This document shows positions 46,647 through 54,222 of a DNA stretch of 64,000 bases, one piece after another. Made by a program: the position numbers and the translations under genes. Position 1 is the first letter of the stretch. Every line of letters starts with the position of its first letter. Origin of the DNA: Desulfuromonadaceae bacterium (GTDB lineage: Bacteria > Desulfobacterota > Desulfuromonadia > Geobacterales > Pseudopelobacteraceae); assembly GCA_028712075.1 (NCBI GenBank), contig JAQTQX010000018.1, positions 1 through 64,000 on the forward strand, read 5' to 3'. The notes under the pieces were generated by a model. That model was not told the DNA's origin and did no database searches. It was given only the letters and a program-made list of their open reading frames with translations.

Positions 46647-46685
46647 ACTCCGGATATTTTTCGATATGGCAGAACGTCTTTACAA

Positions 46686-47096
46686 TCAATAGTCTACTGA
46701 CTTTTCAGCAGCGGTATTGACCGCCAACAGCACATGGTCATAAAGTTCCACGACTTTGCCAAGCATTTCAGGGCGGTCAAGAACGTTGGTGGGTGTCTCT
46801 TGTGGTTCATAACGAAACCGCACCGCATAGACGTTCAGCAGTAGCAGATTTTTGAATCGACTGATGTCACAGCCCAGCTCACGAAGGTTCAGGAGCAGAA
46901 CGTGAATATCGTGAACAAATCCGTAGGAGCCCCCGACAACCGCAATCCATGCTTTGAGGGATTTCTCGACCGCCTGCTGGGCGTGAAAACCAAAAATTTC
47001 ATCATCCGCCGATTCCGGCGACAGCAACGATTTCATTGCCTTGATGTCCTTGGATGCCATCACCAGCATCTGGCGCGCCTGATCAATTGCGTTCAT
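46686..47096 (-). CDS. HEPN-domain protein (toxin half of a HEPN/MNT pair)
   Basis: AIDQARQMLVMASKDIKAMKSLL...EIFGFHAQQAVEKSLKAWIAVVG...HDIHVLL; overlaps the MNT gene. Confidence 0.88.
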   Translation of the reverse strand: MNAIDQARQMLVMASKDIKAMKSLLSPESADDEIFGFHAQQAVEKSLKAWIAVVGGSYGFVHDIHVLLLNLRELGCDISRFKNLLLLNVYAVRFRYEPQETPTNVLDRPEMLGKVVELYDHVLLAVNTAAEKSVDY

Positions 47097-47418
47097 AAAG
47101 CACCTTTCCATCCTTGAGAGCATGGGCAATCACATGATTCCGCACATCCTTCCACTGATCAATCTCTTCAGATGAGTACACCAGAAAATCAAGCGGGATG
47201 TTGTAATCAAAACAAACCTCCCAAAGCTTCACCATCTCGGACTCTCTACTGTGTCGGGCATTAAACGGACCATCCTCGACGACCAGAAAATCCAGGTCAG
47301 AATCAGGCCGCGCCGTACCTTTTGCGTATGAGCCAAAGAGAATTATCTTGTTGGGATTGACTCCCCGCACGATGGTTTCGGTCATTTCTTTGAGAAGTTC
47401 GTCTGTTACTTGGAGCAT
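47083..47418 (-). CDS. Minimal nucleotidyltransferase (MNT) antitoxin
   Basis: ILFGSYAKGTARPDSDLDFLVVED, the GSx10DxD nucleotidyltransferase motif. Confidence 0.92.
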   Translation of the reverse strand: MLQVTDELLKEMTETIVRGVNPNKIILFGSYAKGTARPDSDLDFLVVEDGPFNARHSRESEMVKLWEVCFDYNIPLDFLVYSSEEIDQWKDVRNHVIAHALKDGKVLYERN

Positions 47419-47490
47419 GGCTGTCTCCTTGAGTTCGTTGTTATTTTCGCCACAAATGAGCTGTCGTCATCGCCGAGGAAGTAGTATCCG

Positions 47491-48102
47491 TTATAAAGAA
47501 GGGATTTTTAAGGCTTGGGCAACAAGCTGTACAAGCTCAGCTTTAACTGACTCATCATCAACAAAATTCATCTTTGAGCTATCAACAGAGATGATTTTTG
47601 AATGAGATCGTGCTTTGTCAATCTGCGCTTCAATGGAGTCATTCAGTAACCGGAGAAAATCTGTGGTTATGGATTTTTCCACCACTCGCCCCCGGTTGCT
47701 GATGCGGGTTAACTCGGTTTCGGGATCGCATTGCAGATGAATTATCAATGCCGGGGGCGGCAGCTCTTTTTTGATTTCTTCGTAAACGACTTTGAATGCA
47801 GCCAGCCGCGAACCTTGAAGCCCCATTTCGGCATATGCCATGTCCAGCAAAAACGAGTAATCGCACACCATAATTTTATTATCAGCGCATTGTTTATTTA
47901 TCTGGTGATAATGCTGAAGCATGAAGGATATTTCGGTTTCAAAGGTGTATTTTTTAGGATCGGAATAGAACGCTTCCCAGAACGGGTTTGAATGAAATGA
48001 TTCGTAAATTGGATTAATGCCGGTTTTGGCCAAAAATGATGCGAATGTGGTTTTACCTGATGCGATACCGCCGCATATTTCAATTCTGCCAACCATAATC
48101 AT
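47491..48102 (-). CDS. Deoxynucleoside-kinase-like P-loop kinase
   Basis: IEICGGIASGKTTFASFLAK, CDYSFLLDMAYAEMGL (DRS-like region), LIIHLQCDPETELTRISNRGRVVEKSI; 4-nt overlap with the upstream gene. Confidence 0.82.
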   Translation of the reverse strand: MIMVGRIEICGGIASGKTTFASFLAKTGINPIYESFHSNPFWEAFYSDPKKYTFETEISFMLQHYHQINKQCADNKIMVCDYSFLLDMAYAEMGLQGSRLAAFKVVYEEIKKELPPPALIIHLQCDPETELTRISNRGRVVEKSITTDFLRLLNDSIEAQIDKARSHSKIISVDSSKMNFVDDESVKAELVQLVAQALKIPSL

Positions 48103-49133
48103 CTGCTTTTTTGAGCTAATTTTCGCTCTAATTCATCGATTTTTTTCTTTTGCATTGAGAGCGTTGTACTAATGTTGTCAAAGTATTTTTGATTATTTTT
48201 TACATAATTAACAGCGTCTTGCACTATTGACCTTGTTGAGACATGAACGGAATATAAAGATGCCATTACTCCAACGAGCGCAACTGCAACAGCAAAACTT
48301 GCTACTATATCAAAAGTTTTTTGTTTTGAAATTTTGTCTTTTACGTCAGTAATCGTCTTATTAATCAATTCATTTGCATCTGTAATATCCTTGTTCAATT
48401 TTATTGACATCTCAGAAACTGTTTTTTCTACTCCAATCGCTTTTGAAATAGCCGATGGAATTGAACTATGAATATAATTAAAAGATTGACCAGCTAAAGC
48501 TTTGCCAAGAAACTCTTCTGGCTTTTTGTTTTTTTTGGAAACTGGAAATGGAATATATTTATTGCTAAATTCATAACTTTCATTATTTGAACGCCATCGC
48601 GGATTATTACTTACCTTGGTAAATTCAACCCAGATGAGCCCTTCTCCACCCTTTATCAAATAATCATTATTTGTAAGGTTATGTAGTGGTATTAAAAGCT
48701 GACCTTCAAACCCTGGATCTACAAGAGGTCCAGTACCTAACAAAATCCCACTATGAACTAATTTGATCTGCAAATTAAAGCGAACTGCCAAATAGTCAGG
48801 AAGTCTAAAATATAAGTCAGGTGAAATAAAAGCTATCGAGTGTTTAGGCAGTATGAACACACCGTCATCTTCTATTCGCTCAGTTTTTTTATTACCAGCC
48901 TCATCCCAATAAATAATCGTCCCAATAAAATCAACTTCATAAGAAGCAGACTTAAGGTTTTTATGACAAAATGGCCATATCATTGCTGTCTTTGCTGCAT
49001 AAGCAAAGATATCTGCTGAATTAAGCAACGCAGGGTCGATGTGTTCGAGCGGGTCTTTGCCTTCTAAAGATTCAAAGACACTTTTTGCGTCTACATCTAT
49101 CCTGTCAAAATGATCTTTCACAATATCCGTCAT
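48099..49133 (-). CDS. dUTPase/dCTP-deaminase-fold protein fused to a TM helix and C-terminal coiled coil
   Basis: VHSGILLGTGPLVDPGFEGQLLIPLHNLTNNDYLIKGGEGLIWVEF matches the trimeric dUTPase/Dcd motif III region; later TFDIVASFAVAVALVGVMASLYSV TM segment and a coiled coil. Confidence 0.75.
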   Translation of the reverse strand: MTDIVKDHFDRIDVDAKSVFESLEGKDPLEHIDPALLNSADIFAYAAKTAMIWPFCHKNLKSASYEVDFIGTIIYWDEAGNKKTERIEDDGVFILPKHSIAFISPDLYFRLPDYLAVRFNLQIKLVHSGILLGTGPLVDPGFEGQLLIPLHNLTNNDYLIKGGEGLIWVEFTKVSNNPRWRSNNESYEFSNKYIPFPVSKKNKKPEEFLGKALAGQSFNYIHSSIPSAISKAIGVEKTVSEMSIKLNKDITDANELINKTITDVKDKISKQKTFDIVASFAVAVALVGVMASLYSVHVSTRSIVQDAVNYVKNNQKYFDNISTTLSMQKKKIDELERKLAQKSR

Positions 49134-49157
49134 AATTTATTAAACCTCAACAGCAGA

Positions 49158-50186
49158 TTATGCAGCGTCACGACTTAACAATAACGCTTCCTTACTAAGT
49201 AACAGATTATTACTAAGTCCAAAATATGACACGCTTTTACCAATATTTTTTTCTATATAACTTACATACTCTATTGCAATCCTGTTATTATCAAATTCTT
49301 CAATGTAATCTAGATGATTTAACACAATTATCGTTGGCTGATTTACCAAGATGGCCTGTTTAACAATCTTAGCATCAAATTCAGCAATCCTTCTGACTGT
49401 TTTTGTAACAGAAGTTAACTCGAAAAAAGCCGATGATCTTTTCAATCGCTTATTCAGCAGTTCCCAGCTGATTTCATCTGGCAATGGCCCAGAATTACCC
49501 CCAACCCTTATCGGATATGTCCTAATTACAAGTACAATATCATCAACATCCATTGGGCTCAATCCAGCTTCAGCTAAAAAAGCAGCTGCCGATGTATCGC
49601 GACTGGTTGCATACGGATAATAGGGTGAATGAAGTAGCGACAGGCCAAAGCCTTGCGTTCCTTCGATAATAATCCGCTCCCCCTTTGATAACAAATCACG
49701 CATAAACGGTACAACTGGATGAATGAACGGCTTCAGCCTTTCATCGTCTTTTGCCAGCCGTGCAGTACCGTCACGGCTGATGCGCCTTATTACCGCAGCG
49801 CCCGTGCCACTCTGGGTCGATCCAATTGATTCACGCAGAGAACTATTTTTCTCCGCACTGATTTCATTATCAGTCACAACCATGGCATTCGGGTCGATAT
49901 ACAGGCGATCTGTTGACAATCCAGTGCGGATAATTTCTTCAAACAAAATATCCACATCGATATAACTTCCAGCACCCAACACACAGGTAACATCCGGCAG
50001 TATGGATGGTGTCGGCAACTGCCGCAGAATTAATGGTGTTCCGGTCGAGTCAACAACCGTATGCCCCGAATTGGAACCACCAACCCTGACGGCAACTTTT
50101 GCCCCCATCTCCCGTGCCAGGAAATGCGCAACCTTTCCTTTTCCTTCCCCGCCAAATTGTCCACCAACAACAACTGTTACAGGCAT
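49158..50186 (-). CDS. Short adenylosuccinate-synthetase paralog (PurA/PurZ-like) with Asp-to-Gly change in the P-loop-like motif
   Basis: VVVGGQFGGEGKGKVAHFLARE (PurA: WGDEGKGK), GGSNSGHTVVD, RQLPTPSILPDVTCVLGAGSYIDVDILFEE, IIEGTQGFGLSLLHSPYYPYATSRDTSAAAFLAEAGL; 342 aa, archaeal-type length. Confidence 0.85.
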   Translation of the reverse strand: MPVTVVVGGQFGGEGKGKVAHFLAREMGAKVAVRVGGSNSGHTVVDSTGTPLILRQLPTPSILPDVTCVLGAGSYIDVDILFEEIIRTGLSTDRLYIDPNAMVVTDNEISAEKNSSLRESIGSTQSGTGAAVIRRISRDGTARLAKDDERLKPFIHPVVPFMRDLLSKGERIIIEGTQGFGLSLLHSPYYPYATSRDTSAAAFLAEAGLSPMDVDDIVLVIRTYPIRVGGNSGPLPDEISWELLNKRLKRSSAFFELTSVTKTVRRIAEFDAKIVKQAILVNQPTIIVLNHLDYIEEFDNNRIAIEYVSYIEKNIGKSVSYFGLSNNLLLSKEALLLSRDAA

Positions 50187-50195
50187 AAAACACCC

Positions 50196-52268
50196 CTATT
50201 TCAATTTCGAATCAACCTTGGCAATTTTCGCTATCTGCTGTTGCAACGAAACAATATCGTTGCCGTTATGTATCACTACATGGGCAAGACTTGTCAACGT
50301 GTAGATTTCCATTTCTACATGATGAGCATTTGCTTTGTCATAATCTTCCTTGCTATTGCCATCGGCAAGATATCTTTTAATACGCTCTTCTTCCGAAGAT
50401 TCAATATGCACGTGAATGAATGCCTGTCCGAAAGTTTCCACCATGAAGGCATGGTCTTCGGGATGACGAAGCCCGTCAATAACAAGATTACCTTTGGCTG
50501 GCAGCAGTTTAAGCAATTGCTTACATAGCCAGCGTTGCCCCGGTGTTTTGTTTATCTCATCGCCAATGTCCTGAAGGGTATCTCGATCCGGCTCTATGCC
50601 ACGCTCTCGCAGCAGTTGCTTTAACACCAGGCTGAATCTTGTATAGGCAAAACCGGAAGATTCAAGGAAAGTACCTGCAGTAGTCTTACCGGTTGCAATC
50701 GGCCCGCTGAGACCAATTACCTTCCTGTTTCTCCAGCCGCTGGTATTAACCGCCAGATCAGGGATGATCAGGTATTCCTCGTCTTCCGTCCCAAGAGCTT
50801 CAAACTTGCCACTCCAGAAAAACAGGCCGACGATGGCAGAGGTAATGGCATCCAGCTCATCATGGGTGACTTCTTTGTAGTCAAAGCTCCCTTCAATGCC
50901 AAACAACTGTAAACCGCGCTCAAGATATTCAAGGCTGGCACGTTTGCGCGGTATACCCATGATGTCCTGCGCTGCACCGGGATAGCTTTCTATGACAGGA
51001 ACGCCAAGGCTGCGGAAATGAGCAGCCAGCCGCATACCTCGCGCGGTCAATTTTTGCATACTCGGAATTAATGAAGGATAAACGTTTACGCCGCGCCTTT
51101 TCAGGATGCGCTCGCATATTCTCATGATGCCAAATTCATCGCGCCCGGGGTCGTCATCACTTACCGAAAGCCTTCCCTTCGGAATGGATAGCGGGGAATC
51201 AATTGAAACCACATCCGGACGGAATGAAAGGGTTGTTTCAATCAAATCATGGTCAGTACCCAGGCATTGCGTTTCGGCAACATTGTTAGTCAACAGACAC
51301 CACCCGGAGGGACGGCTTTCACTTCCGGTCAGGTCGATGCCCACCACTTTGAATTCGCGGTCTTTTTTGAGAACATGGAGATCTTTAAGAAGAATTAGCG
51401 GTCCGGCAACACCTTCATACGGCTGTAAGCGTATGCCTTCACTGCTTGAGTCACTTGCCCAGACGATTTTACTTTTTTGCTTTGAAAAATGTGGCAATGC
51501 TTTCCTGATTTGATGCGGGGCCTTGAGCTTGTCGAGCATCCGGTCAACTACCGTATCAAAGATGACTTTCATCCCTTCAATATCGGCATGGTTGTACTGT
51601 ATCAGTTGCTTCAGGGCTTTCATGTCACCCCAGCGATACTTGTACCAGAGCACCGGAGCGGCCTCACCCGCCATGTTTTGCAGGTTGCTGGGACGAACAA
51701 CGCCAATCTCGGTTTCAATCGCTTTTTGTCCGCCTGACAATCCCACACGCTTTGCCAGAAAACGAAGGTCAACGTGGCAGACGGGGAGATTCAGCCCCTT
51801 AAATTCCTGCTTTATAAAGGGGAGATCAAAAAGTGAACCGTTGAAGGTAACCAGGATTTTTGCTTGAGCGATGGCCTTTTTAAACGCCTCATCACTACCA
51901 CCCTGAATAAAAGCACCAAATTCTTTACCCATACTCCAGCCTACGAGTGTTATTTTGTCGTAATGCTTACTCAAGCCGGTAGTTTCGATATCAAGAAACA
52001 TGGTTTTTTCGGGGAAGCTGGCGGCAATGCGGTAGTGCTCATTATTTGGAAGGGCGTTGGCAAAGAAATCAAGATCTTGTTTCTCAAATGCCAACTGTGA
52101 CAAGAGTAAAGGAGAGCCGGGCATACTTACAACGTCATCAGCAAATAATGAAAACTGGCTGGGCAGGGTCTTCTCGTAGTCCTTCCAAGTGACAATGCCG
52201 GATTGCCAAAAAGTTTGTTCTCTTTTTGCGGTAATTCCTCTGATATGTTGAAATGTGTGGATGAGCAT
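50196..52268 (-). CDS. Triple fusion: YprB-type RNase H/DEDD exonuclease, DUF429 and P-loop nucleotide kinase
   Basis: MFLDIETTGLSKHYDKITLVG...NGSLFDLPFI...YNHADIEGMKVI (DEDD); FKVVGIDLTGSESRPSGW...DVVSIDSPLS...HDELDAITSAIVG (DUF429-like); VIGLSGPIATGKTTAGTFLESSG...VIDGLRHPED (dNMP-kinase/AAA_18-like). Confidence 0.8.
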   Translation of the reverse strand: MLIHTFQHIRGITAKREQTFWQSGIVTWKDYEKTLPSQFSLFADDVVSMPGSPLLLSQLAFEKQDLDFFANALPNNEHYRIAASFPEKTMFLDIETTGLSKHYDKITLVGWSMGKEFGAFIQGGSDEAFKKAIAQAKILVTFNGSLFDLPFIKQEFKGLNLPVCHVDLRFLAKRVGLSGGQKAIETEIGVVRPSNLQNMAGEAAPVLWYKYRWGDMKALKQLIQYNHADIEGMKVIFDTVVDRMLDKLKAPHQIRKALPHFSKQKSKIVWASDSSSEGIRLQPYEGVAGPLILLKDLHVLKKDREFKVVGIDLTGSESRPSGWCLLTNNVAETQCLGTDHDLIETTLSFRPDVVSIDSPLSIPKGRLSVSDDDPGRDEFGIMRICERILKRRGVNVYPSLIPSMQKLTARGMRLAAHFRSLGVPVIESYPGAAQDIMGIPRKRASLEYLERGLQLFGIEGSFDYKEVTHDELDAITSAIVGLFFWSGKFEALGTEDEEYLIIPDLAVNTSGWRNRKVIGLSGPIATGKTTAGTFLESSGFAYTRFSLVLKQLLRERGIEPDRDTLQDIGDEINKTPGQRWLCKQLLKLLPAKGNLVIDGLRHPEDHAFMVETFGQAFIHVHIESSEEERIKRYLADGNSKEDYDKANAHHVEMEIYTLTSLAHVVIHNGNDIVSLQQQIAKIAKVDSKLK

Positions 52269-52272
52269 GAAA

Positions 52273-52689
52273 TTAGTGTGGGGTTATATTGTAATAAACA
52301 GTGGAAAGGATCCAAAATACAGAGCACATCAAATAAACAAGTCCAGAACGCCTGAAGCTTGCCAAGCTCAGATGCGCTTTTCTTAATTGAATTATGTCAA
52401 ATAATAACGCTTTCCCTTGATCGCTATCGCCAAGACTGCCCTTAACCTGAGTTTCAAGTTCTGATATGCGTTTATCAAATGGCCTTCTGTCATTTCGAGC
52501 TCCTGAAATCCGCCAGAAAAAAAGTACCATTGCAATCGTAAATGCGACAGAACGAAGCCACCCTTCAGGCACGCTCCAACATCCCAATGTGGTAAGGAAA
52601 AGCCATATACCCTCATGATCAAGAGTGCTTCTCCATGCCATTATATCTATTTCAATCTTCTTTATTTCGTCTTTCATCGTTCCTGCCAT
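52273..52689 (-). CDS. Small predicted 2-3 TM protein, first gene of the nucleotide-metabolism operon
   Basis: 138 aa; WLRSVAFTIAMVLFFWRI and GLVYLMCSVFWILSTVYY hydrophobic segments; 4 nt upstream of the triple-fusion ORF. Confidence 0.65.
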   Translation of the reverse strand: MAGTMKDEIKKIEIDIMAWRSTLDHEGIWLFLTTLGCWSVPEGWLRSVAFTIAMVLFFWRISGARNDRRPFDKRISELETQVKGSLGDSDQGKALLFDIIQLRKAHLSLASFRRSGLVYLMCSVFWILSTVYYNITPH

Positions 52690-52732
52690 AGATGCGTTTG
52701 ATAAGAATGGAGGGATGACAAGTTAACCGAGG

Positions 52733-52771
52733 TTATACACCACATTTCATTCCACACGCCACCATTTTAAC
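52733..52771 (+). repeat. Copy A of a ~38-bp imperfect direct repeat
   Basis: TATACACCACATTTCATTCCACACGCCACCATTTTAAC; matches 54113-54150. Confidence 0.8.
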
Positions 52772-53120
52772 CTTGCCTCACAGCCTGCCAAATGCCCGGA
52801 CATCCAGTCTCTCTAGCTTTCTTCCGAGAATGAGGATAACTCCGGCATATCTCCGGCTTCATATCCTGTATCCGACAGATATATTTAGCCTTGCCTGGCA
52901 GCTTACGCAACCATGGACAGCGGTTGACATCATCGTGAGTTCGTGGACTAATCCAGATATCAAAGATCCCAGGGCCAATTTCTTCGACCCACTCAAGAAT
53001 ATCGTTTCGACCGTGTTCTTCCCACATATCAACATCTTCAGCAGTGGCACAGGATTGGTAAGCGCCAAGATTAAGACAACAATGTCCGCACTGTGTACAA
53101 GCAAACCCTTTTGGTGGCAT
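52767..53120 (-). CDS. YkgJ-family cysteine-cluster protein
   Basis: FACTQCGHCCLNLGAYQSC, RCPWLRKLPGKAKYICRIQDMKPEICRSYPHSRKKARETGCPG; Met at 53120 is the likely start. Confidence 0.85.
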   Translation of the reverse strand: MPPKGFACTQCGHCCLNLGAYQSCATAEDVDMWEEHGRNDILEWVEEIGPGIFDIWISPRTHDDVNRCPWLRKLPGKAKYICRIQDMKPEICRSYPHSRKKARETGCPGIWQAVRQG

Positions 53121-53212
53121 AAAACCCTCCCATAAAAAACGCCAACAATAGAAACAGCGCATCCTGCAAGTTTCCGTGGGTTGCCGCACCACGGCCAACC
53201 AGAGCTAAATAT

Positions 53213-54067
53213 CTACCCCCGCCCTTTCAACCCCACCCTGACAAACTCAATCGCTCCCGGCACCTCTTCCCAGTACTTCCCCGCTTCCTGCCAGTAATAC
53301 CAAGCCTGATCCGCACCGCCAACGGTATAACGCCCCTCATCCATATTTCTCGGTCTCGGATGGCGGACTTTTACAAGCTCTGCCGCCACCAGCGGTAAAA
53401 CTGTAACCGCCTGCCTGAACGCCTTTTCCGCCTTGACCAGCTGTTTGAGGGCGACAAGAGCCAGAACGTGGCCATATATCGTTTCGGCCATGTGGTCGTC
53501 CTGTGATTTTTTGCATATTGCCAGCACATCTTTGTACATCTTCAATTTCAGGCAGCAATCGACCACGAGCGCACGGACACCCTGGTTGTCGCCCGGATTC
53601 AGTGACAAGATTGTTTTGAAGACTGAAAGCGCCATCTCGGTATTGCCGTTTTCCATGTATTGCAGGCCAAGAGAATGATAGGAGCGCAAAAAGGGGCGGT
53701 TTTCGAGCCAGCCCCATTCCAGCTTGTTACCGGCGGCGCTGAATTGCTCGATAAAGCACTGCATGCCGATATTCACCGCCTGCTGCCACAGCAACTGGGC
53801 CTCCTGACTTTTTCCGTGCTGATCAAGGAGCATCGCCAGATGATGGTACACGTCAATGAAATTGGGCGCTTCGTGCAACAGTTCCCGGAGTTGCCGCTCC
53901 ATCTCCGTCGGGGTGACGCTGCCAAAATCCTGAGCATCAAGCAGGTCGTTGAACTCCATCTCCGCTTCATACGGAATCTCAACGAACCGCCACTCCTTGT
54001 TACCAAGATCTTCGAGAGTTGCCCTATTGCTTTTACTGGCCTTTTTTACGCTCTTTTTCATCCTCAT
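53213..54067 (-). CDS. Tetratricopeptide-repeat protein
   Basis: FIDVYHHLAMLLDQHGKSQEAQLLWQQAV; SYHSLGLQYMENGNTEMALSVFKTILSLNPGD. Confidence 0.8.
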   Translation of the reverse strand: MRMKKSVKKASKSNRATLEDLGNKEWRFVEIPYEAEMEFNDLLDAQDFGSVTPTEMERQLRELLHEAPNFIDVYHHLAMLLDQHGKSQEAQLLWQQAVNIGMQCFIEQFSAAGNKLEWGWLENRPFLRSYHSLGLQYMENGNTEMALSVFKTILSLNPGDNQGVRALVVDCCLKLKMYKDVLAICKKSQDDHMAETIYGHVLALVALKQLVKAEKAFRQAVTVLPLVAAELVKVRHPRPRNMDEGRYTVGGADQAWYYWQEAGKYWEEVPGAIEFVRVGLKGRG

Positions 54068-54112
54068 TTACCTCTCAGGCATTATTAGAAACGCACACAA
54101 CTTTCAACAACG

Positions 54113-54150
54113 TATACACCACACTCCTCCACACGTGCCACCATTTTAAC
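54113..54150 (+). repeat. Copy B of the ~38-bp imperfect direct repeat
   Basis: TATACACCACACTCCTCCACACGTGCCACCATTTTAAC. Confidence 0.8.
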
Positions 54151-54155
54151 TAACC

Positions 54156-54192
54156 AAAACGGGCCACATGGCATGTTCGCCCTGTGACCCGT
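54156..54192 (-). terminator. Probable terminator of mtgA
   Basis: Imperfect hairpin ACGGGTCACAGG...CCATGTGGCCCGT followed by TTTTGGTT on the minus strand. Confidence 0.5.
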
Positions 54193-54222
54193 AGCAGGTT
54201 CGGTAACAGTGAGGCATCGAGC

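Follow-up and report, generated by a model that had tools for sequence, protein, structure and literature searches.

A conserved mobile operon with a predicted PurZ-type enzyme, probably an undescribed anti-virus system of bacteria and archaea

PurZ has been described as a phage enzyme, the one behind Z-DNA (Z, 2-aminoadenine; PMC12884076). Here we report a conserved, mobile cellular operon centred on a predicted PurZ-type enzyme, in a stretch of 64,000 nucleotides (nt) from a Desulfuromonadaceae bacterium (GCA_028712075.1, contig JAQTQX010000018.1, positions 1–64,000; hereafter the window, to which coordinates refer unless a locus is named). The operon is probably an undescribed anti-virus system, present in very distantly related bacteria and archaea. 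Its genes encode a nuclease–DUF429–kinase fusion (B), the PurZ-type enzyme (C), a membrane protein with a dCTP-deaminase/dUTPase-like (Dcd/dUTPase) fold (D) and a deoxynucleoside kinase (E), and it is virtually certain that this four-gene set recurs as one conserved mobile operon (Table 1).

An initial annotation, made from the letters of the window, had described five tightly packed minus-strand genes, A to E, as a single operon. All five open reading frames lie where it placed them, with gaps of 4 nt (A–B), 9 nt (B–C) and 24 nt (C–D) and a 4-nt overlap between D and E. The co-occurrence check that it proposed came out in favour of the operon, with gene A removed. Alignment of C-like proteins against one genome per species yielded 319 relatives, and among the best 80 by likeness to the window C, B lies near C in 73 loci and D in 78, with the two together in 71. 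B, C and D stand in immediate succession in 55 of the 80, and E lies downstream in 23; the typical B–C and C–D junctions are 4-nt overlaps. These loci cover at least 16 phyla, among them Pseudomonadota, Cyanobacteriota, Bacillota, Bacteroidota and Chloroflexota, as well as archaea, and because the B–C–D(–E) order recurs across phyla, the grouping is more than chance. Gene A was rejected as a core part, its only other occurrence being a 72% identical homologue in relative G132; a family-library search gave it one weak PHROG match and otherwise none. The two transmembrane (TM) segments that the initial annotation had assigned to A are a weak call, no segment exceeding the hydropathy threshold. 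Its domain calls for B, C, D and E were borne out by Pfam, and hydropathy supports a TM helix in D.

The partners of C are not fixed. A haloarchaeal operon has an adenylate kinase where E would be, and in some Rhizobiaceae variants B is missing and a YfbR-like HD protein accompanies C and D. Partners that change while PurZ stays are in keeping with a defence system whose effectors can be exchanged.

Several lines of evidence show that the block is an insertion, horizontally acquired and patchily distributed, with recent transfer across genera, as had been suspected from the window. First, rlmN and mtgA are adjacent in all eight relatives checked, the comparison that the initial annotation had called for, and in the window they stand about 7.6 kb apart. 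Second, B is present in only 3 of 76 genomes of the family. Third, a genome belonging to another genus has a B 93% identical to the window B, as against 75–82% for the rlmN of the same pair. Gene D, which accounts for the AT-rich part noticed earlier at 48.1–49.1 kb, has a GC content of 34.5%; windows of its size taken from the rest of the 64 kb average 52.9% and never fall below 42.7%. D is also the most divergent gene between close operons, with 48% identity between G132 and the window as against 93% for B. The initial annotation saw no integrase or tRNA boundary; no tRNA is present in the 64-kb window, and relative G032 has a phage-type integrase gene directly upstream of B. An RlmJ-like gene lies about 2–4 kb from C in eight loci (L037, L054, L058, L060, L078, L080, L081 and L085); the operon may have inserted repeatedly at this site.

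Gene C belongs to the adenylosuccinate synthetase family (Adenylsucc_synt, PF00709, 1.6e-51) and departs from canonical PurA at the residues that distinguish PurZ. Position 13 is Ser in 71 and Gly in 11 of 82 operon proteins, the window C being among the latter, and Asp in 8/8 PurA compared. A PIRV-x-G insertion (82/82) and Thr258 (77/82) are shared with 4/4 phage PurZ, unlike all eight PurA, and Ile226 likewise agrees with phage PurZ and differs from the compared PurA. In the structure of S-2L PurZ, the equivalent Ser, the Val and insertion (beside deoxyribose C2′) and the Thr loop are substrate contacts associated with selectivity for deoxyguanosine monophosphate (dGMP; PMC8342488). In a tree of 68 rows, all PurZ-type proteins split from Asp-type PurA with support of 100/100; within the PurZ side, the operon proteins and a few viral contigs (96/75) separate from known phage PurZ together with a kinase–PurZ fusion family (91/83). 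Given Ser or Gly at position 13 and the other PurZ-distinguishing residues, C probably makes 2-amino-adenylosuccinate from dGMP, and we consider a PurZ-type reaction likely on this sequence evidence. C scores below the cut-off of the curated PurZ model NF038379 (243 versus 300 bits) and of its best-scoring model, PRK04293 (264 versus 368), so we file it as a divergent branch of PurZ type and not as a member of a curated model.

We also considered C as a duplicate of canonical PurA, which is ruled out by the residues, the tree and a separate purA in the genome; of 26 other genomes with the operon, 25 also encode a separate, canonical full-length PurA, as this one does. Archaeal short PurA (Pyrococcus 2d7u; PRK04293) is the best solved-structure match of the C profile and similar in length, but it keeps Asp13, has no PIRV-x-G insertion and forms a separate clade (100/100). 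In a survey from 2026, the archaeal relatives with Ser/Gly numbered only four (PMC12884076). Three viral contigs (L095, L097 and L098) encode a stand-alone PurZ, 54–59% identical to the window C, with no B or D; these look like PurZ of the operon type that viruses or mobile elements have acquired.

Gene B combines an RNase_H_2 domain (1.2e-27), a weakly matched DUF429 domain (0.076) and an AAA_18 kinase domain (1e-9), and its AlphaFold2 model is confident (pLDDT 90). The exonuclease domain has MrfB and diDNase as solved relatives in the PDB, the DEDD residues are retained in the RNase H-type B proteins, and the acidic residues of DUF429 are invariant or present in all but one of 73 homologues. 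In six homologues, an HHH-PHP module takes the place of the exonuclease while DUF429 and the kinase are retained, a swap suggesting that a DNA-degrading function matters there. A free-standing DUF429-like protein, 58% identical to the middle domain of B, lies beside an annotated diadenylate cyclase on a Dyadobacter plasmid (L012, 6974–7594).

Gene D matches the Pfam DCD family (5e-6), and its AlphaFold2 model has a Dcd-type fold by comparison with Dcd–Dut structures (Foldseek E 6e-11, TM-score by target up to about 0.8). It carries one strong C-terminal TM helix on a long helical tail; 81 of 82 homologues have a TM segment. Where deaminases have their glutamate (E138 in Escherichia coli Dcd), 48 aligned D proteins have an invariant Pro149; since this replaces the catalytic Glu, D is not a dCTP deaminase, and that assignment was rejected. 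D keeps the DPG motif and lacks the usual RSSLAR motif. It was also rejected as an orthologue of phage DutZ, its profile matching one Ghobes dUTPase only in part and the other not at all. E matches the Pfam family dNK (PF01712, 6.5e-27), and its PDB matches are deoxyguanosine and deoxynucleoside kinases.

A role in defence is likely, though somewhat less so than the PurZ-type reaction. In 19 genomes, we searched 133 proteins from the flanks of the operon against PADLOC at E 1e-10, with 133 proteins from around the housekeeping purA of those genomes as the control. The operon flanks matched 292 PADLOC families and the purA flanks 57, a contrast and not a calibrated test, because the counts are of families and not of proteins. 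Among the families listed, type I methylase and specificity subunits predominate in the operon flanks and are absent from the control, where the listed families trace mainly to one UvrD-like helicase matched by many GajB models. HsdM-, HsdR- and integrase-like genes are recurrent in the operon neighbourhoods. The operon is thus associated with defence genes, by the flank contrast, and mobile, by the empty site in 8/8 relatives. The genes do not amount to a known defence system: PADLOC gave only weak single-domain matches, of dCTPase to the B kinase, PDC-S44 to DUF429 and VakA to E. No described system with this gene set was found in PADLOC (2023 copy) or the open-access papers searched, although earlier mention in subscription papers is possible; none of the papers searched deals with a PurZ operon of cells or with DUF7002.

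The operon resembles several characterized systems in part. It shares PurZ-diagnostic residues and the PurZ clade with the PurZ/PurZ0 of phages whose Z-clusters are known (S-2L, phiVC8, Ghobes and Wayne), and phage PurZ0 too has a dUTPase-superfamily partner, comparable to D (PMC12884076). In contrast to phage PurZ, C makes up a branch of its own, found in cellular genomes, and its partners are B, D and E; the operon has no recognisable DpoZ, DatZ or MazZ-like gene, which sets it apart from a Z-cluster, and neither B nor D was found among 50,697 phage records. Kongming uses deoxyinosine triphosphate (dITP) made from dAMP, with KomA acting on dAMP and KomBC depleting NAD+ (PMC12948488), and so establishes that signalling by a modified nucleotide exists in principle. 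By analogy, a deoxynucleoside monophosphate (dNMP) would here become a non-canonical nucleotide, which would in turn activate an effector. The enzymes differ throughout, with a PurZ predicted to act on dGMP and a Dcd-fold membrane protein in this operon, and domain searches of it found no KomA adenosine-deaminase-like or KomBC domains. Clover, a dGTPase regulated by dTTP and p3diT, and the defensive dCTP deaminases share nucleotide-pool chemistry in defence islands, and D has a Dcd-like fold; however, the window operon has no HD dNTPase, YfbR-like HD genes being confined to some Rhizobiaceae variants, and D, unlike the deaminases, lacks the deaminase glutamate.

As our best overall explanation, we tentatively propose a mobile operon for conflict with phages that has PurZ chemistry at its centre and works in the following order. 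When DNA is broken down during infection, whether by the phage or by the B nuclease domains, dGMP would rise, and E would add to it by making dGMP from deoxyguanosine. C would join dGMP and aspartate to give N6-succino-2-amino-dAMP (dSMP), as its PurZ-diagnostic residues suggest. The kinase domain of B, together with host kinases, would then phosphorylate dSMP or, after the action of host adenylosuccinate lyase, the 2-amino-deoxyadenosine monophosphate (dZMP). Finally, the Dcd/dUTPase-fold domain of D may bind the unusual nucleotide, whereupon its membrane-helix part would harm the infected cell. Signalling through D is the step about which we are yet more tentative. Several points weigh against this explanation: the enrichment of defence genes in the flanks could merely reflect shared mobility, the substrate of C is predicted from residues, the window C has Gly at position 13 whereas phage PurZ has Ser, and nucleotide binding or hydrolysis by D is hypothetical. 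The initial annotation had offered two possibilities, production or salvage of a non-standard purine deoxynucleotide and a defence that senses or depletes nucleotides; the PurZ-type residues and tree position of C, the mobility and the defence-gene flanks fit both.

The main rival replaces signalling by depletion. D would hydrolyse purine deoxynucleoside triphosphates (dNTPs) to dNMPs, C and the kinases would drain dGMP into dead-end dSMP, starving the phage of dGTP and dATP, and the membrane anchor would merely localise D. Depletion of dNTPs is a known defence principle (PMC12265719); the dUTPase-fold phage enzyme DutZ converts dATP and dGTP to dAMP and dGMP next to PurZ0 (PMC12884076), MazZ does likewise for dGTP in S-2L (PMC8342488), and the DPG motif is kept in D. 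Yet D has Pro149 for the deaminase Glu in the 48 aligned proteins, no RSSLAR motif and a profile that only partly matches a single Ghobes dUTPase, and depletion leaves unexplained why the TM helix is so widely retained. We regard this rival as unlikely, though a serious contender. Less probable again is that 2-aminoadenine nucleotides are made for the DNA of the host, a mobile element or the invading phage, marking or poisoning it, with nucleases acting by Z content. C is of PurZ type, B couples two nuclease modules to a nucleotide kinase, and a phage Z-cluster expressed in E. coli puts Z into its DNA, with toxic effect (PMC8342488); against this, no DNA polymerase is recurrent in the operon neighbourhoods, no DatZ/MazZ-type dATPase was recognised in the operon, and B and D are missing from the phage records searched.

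A nuclease, a deoxynucleoside kinase and a dNMP kinase could also make a salvage or clean-up route recovering deoxynucleotides from DNA fragments, with no part in defence. The patchy distribution in the family and the recent cross-genus transfer, the defence-gene flanks and the fast evolution of D make this quite improbable. Nucleoside natural-product biosynthesis can be dismissed as very improbable: one such cluster (L011) does include a PurA-like gene, but its product keeps Asp13 and groups with PurA, and no tailoring enzymes or exporters are recurrent near the operon. The cluster in question, on a Rhizobium leguminosarum plasmid (L011, 6938–14660), has an Asp-type PurA with FolE, PurB, QueC/QueE-like and IMP dehydrogenase genes and looks like a 7-deazapurine nucleoside cluster.

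Spread over at least 16 phyla, a conserved operon with enzymes of PurZ type would make 2-aminoadenine chemistry a cellular trait, probably an immune one, and it offers a wide new source of such enzymes. The origin of phage PurZ, and whether modified purine deoxynucleotides serve as cellular alarm signals, become testable questions. Speculatively, bacteria and archaea may share a new immune class in which PurZ-made succino-2-amino- or 2-amino-deoxyadenosine nucleotides are the alarm and a Dcd-fold membrane effector reads it, phage PurZ having a common origin with such a host system or deriving from it.

Table 1. Features of the insert and its genes in the window
Feature	Position	Strand	Basis or remark
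Gene A, 138 aa, small possible membrane protein	52273..52689	-	Accessory, outside conserved core
Gene B, 690 aa, DEDD exonuclease, DUF429 and dNMP-kinase-like fusion; core	50196..52268	-	Pfam, AlphaFold2 model, conserved catalytic residues
B residues 90–239, RNase_H_2/YprB-like DEDD exonuclease domain	51552..52001	-	Pfam, PDB relatives
B residues about 305–500, DUF429 domain (RNase H-like)	50769..51356	-	Pfam, conserved acidic residues
B residues 515–684, AdkA/UPF0200-like P-loop nucleotide kinase domain	50217..50726	-	Pfam
Gene C, 342 aa, predicted PurZ-type 2-aminoadenylosuccinate synthetase; core	49158..50186	-	PF00709, NF038379, residues, tree
C residues 8–17 GGQFGGEGKG, Gly where PurA has catalytic Asp13 (most homologues Ser)	50136..50165	-	
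Gene D, 344 aa, divergent dCTP-deaminase/dUTPase-fold domain and long helices with TM; core	48099..49133	-	
D residues 276–294, predicted TM helix	48252..48308	-	
Gene E, 203 aa, deoxynucleoside kinase (deoxyguanosine-kinase-like); optional	47491..48102	-	PF01712, PDB dNK/dGK matches
MNT nucleotidyltransferase, probable antitoxin of adjoining toxin–antitoxin pair	47083..47418	-	Domain matches
HEPN protein, probable toxin of adjoining toxin–antitoxin pair	46686..47129	-	Domain match
Whole insert rlmN–mtgA: HEPN/MNT, A–E, CxxCxxCC protein, TPR protein	46647..54222	.	

The insert also holds a HEPN/MNT pair, its genes overlapping by 47 nt and separated from E by 72 nt. HEPN and NTP_transf_2 domains are present, and the MNT protein scores below the cut-off of the MntA antitoxin model of type VII HEPN/MNT (35 versus 60 bits). 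The pair was rejected as a core part of the operon, G132 having a different HEPN/MNT-like pair nearby, and is probably a separate toxin–antitoxin module within the same island. HEPN/MNT-type pairs of different families thus stand beside the operon in this genome (G000, window 46686–47418) and in G132 (L016, 5929–6619). The TPR gene of the insert (window 53213–54067) has a close homologue (89%) in 1 of 39 genus members (G034), beside mtgA.

PurB was likewise rejected as a member: a purB gene adjoins the operon in both L087 and L088, yet in either case it is the best purB match of its genome, and in L087 a purE-like AIRC gene precedes it, so that it may be housekeeping. In a second PurZ family, an N-terminal kinase is fused to a PurZ with Ser13, often followed by DUF7002 (plasmids L010, L013 and L014; viral contigs L121 and L154; L251). 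In L010 and L013, both Rhizobiaceae plasmids, the gene before the fusion encodes a divergent YfbR-like HD protein, and on a Rhizobium plasmid such fusions lie beside AbiE and a SIR2/DUF87-ATPase pair; the family looks like a sister defence system. A protein of 244–254 aa (MQNRYVGDxGDFxKYxLLR) with no Pfam match adjoins the operon in 19 loci, mostly alphaproteobacterial (for example, L091, 12172–12903).

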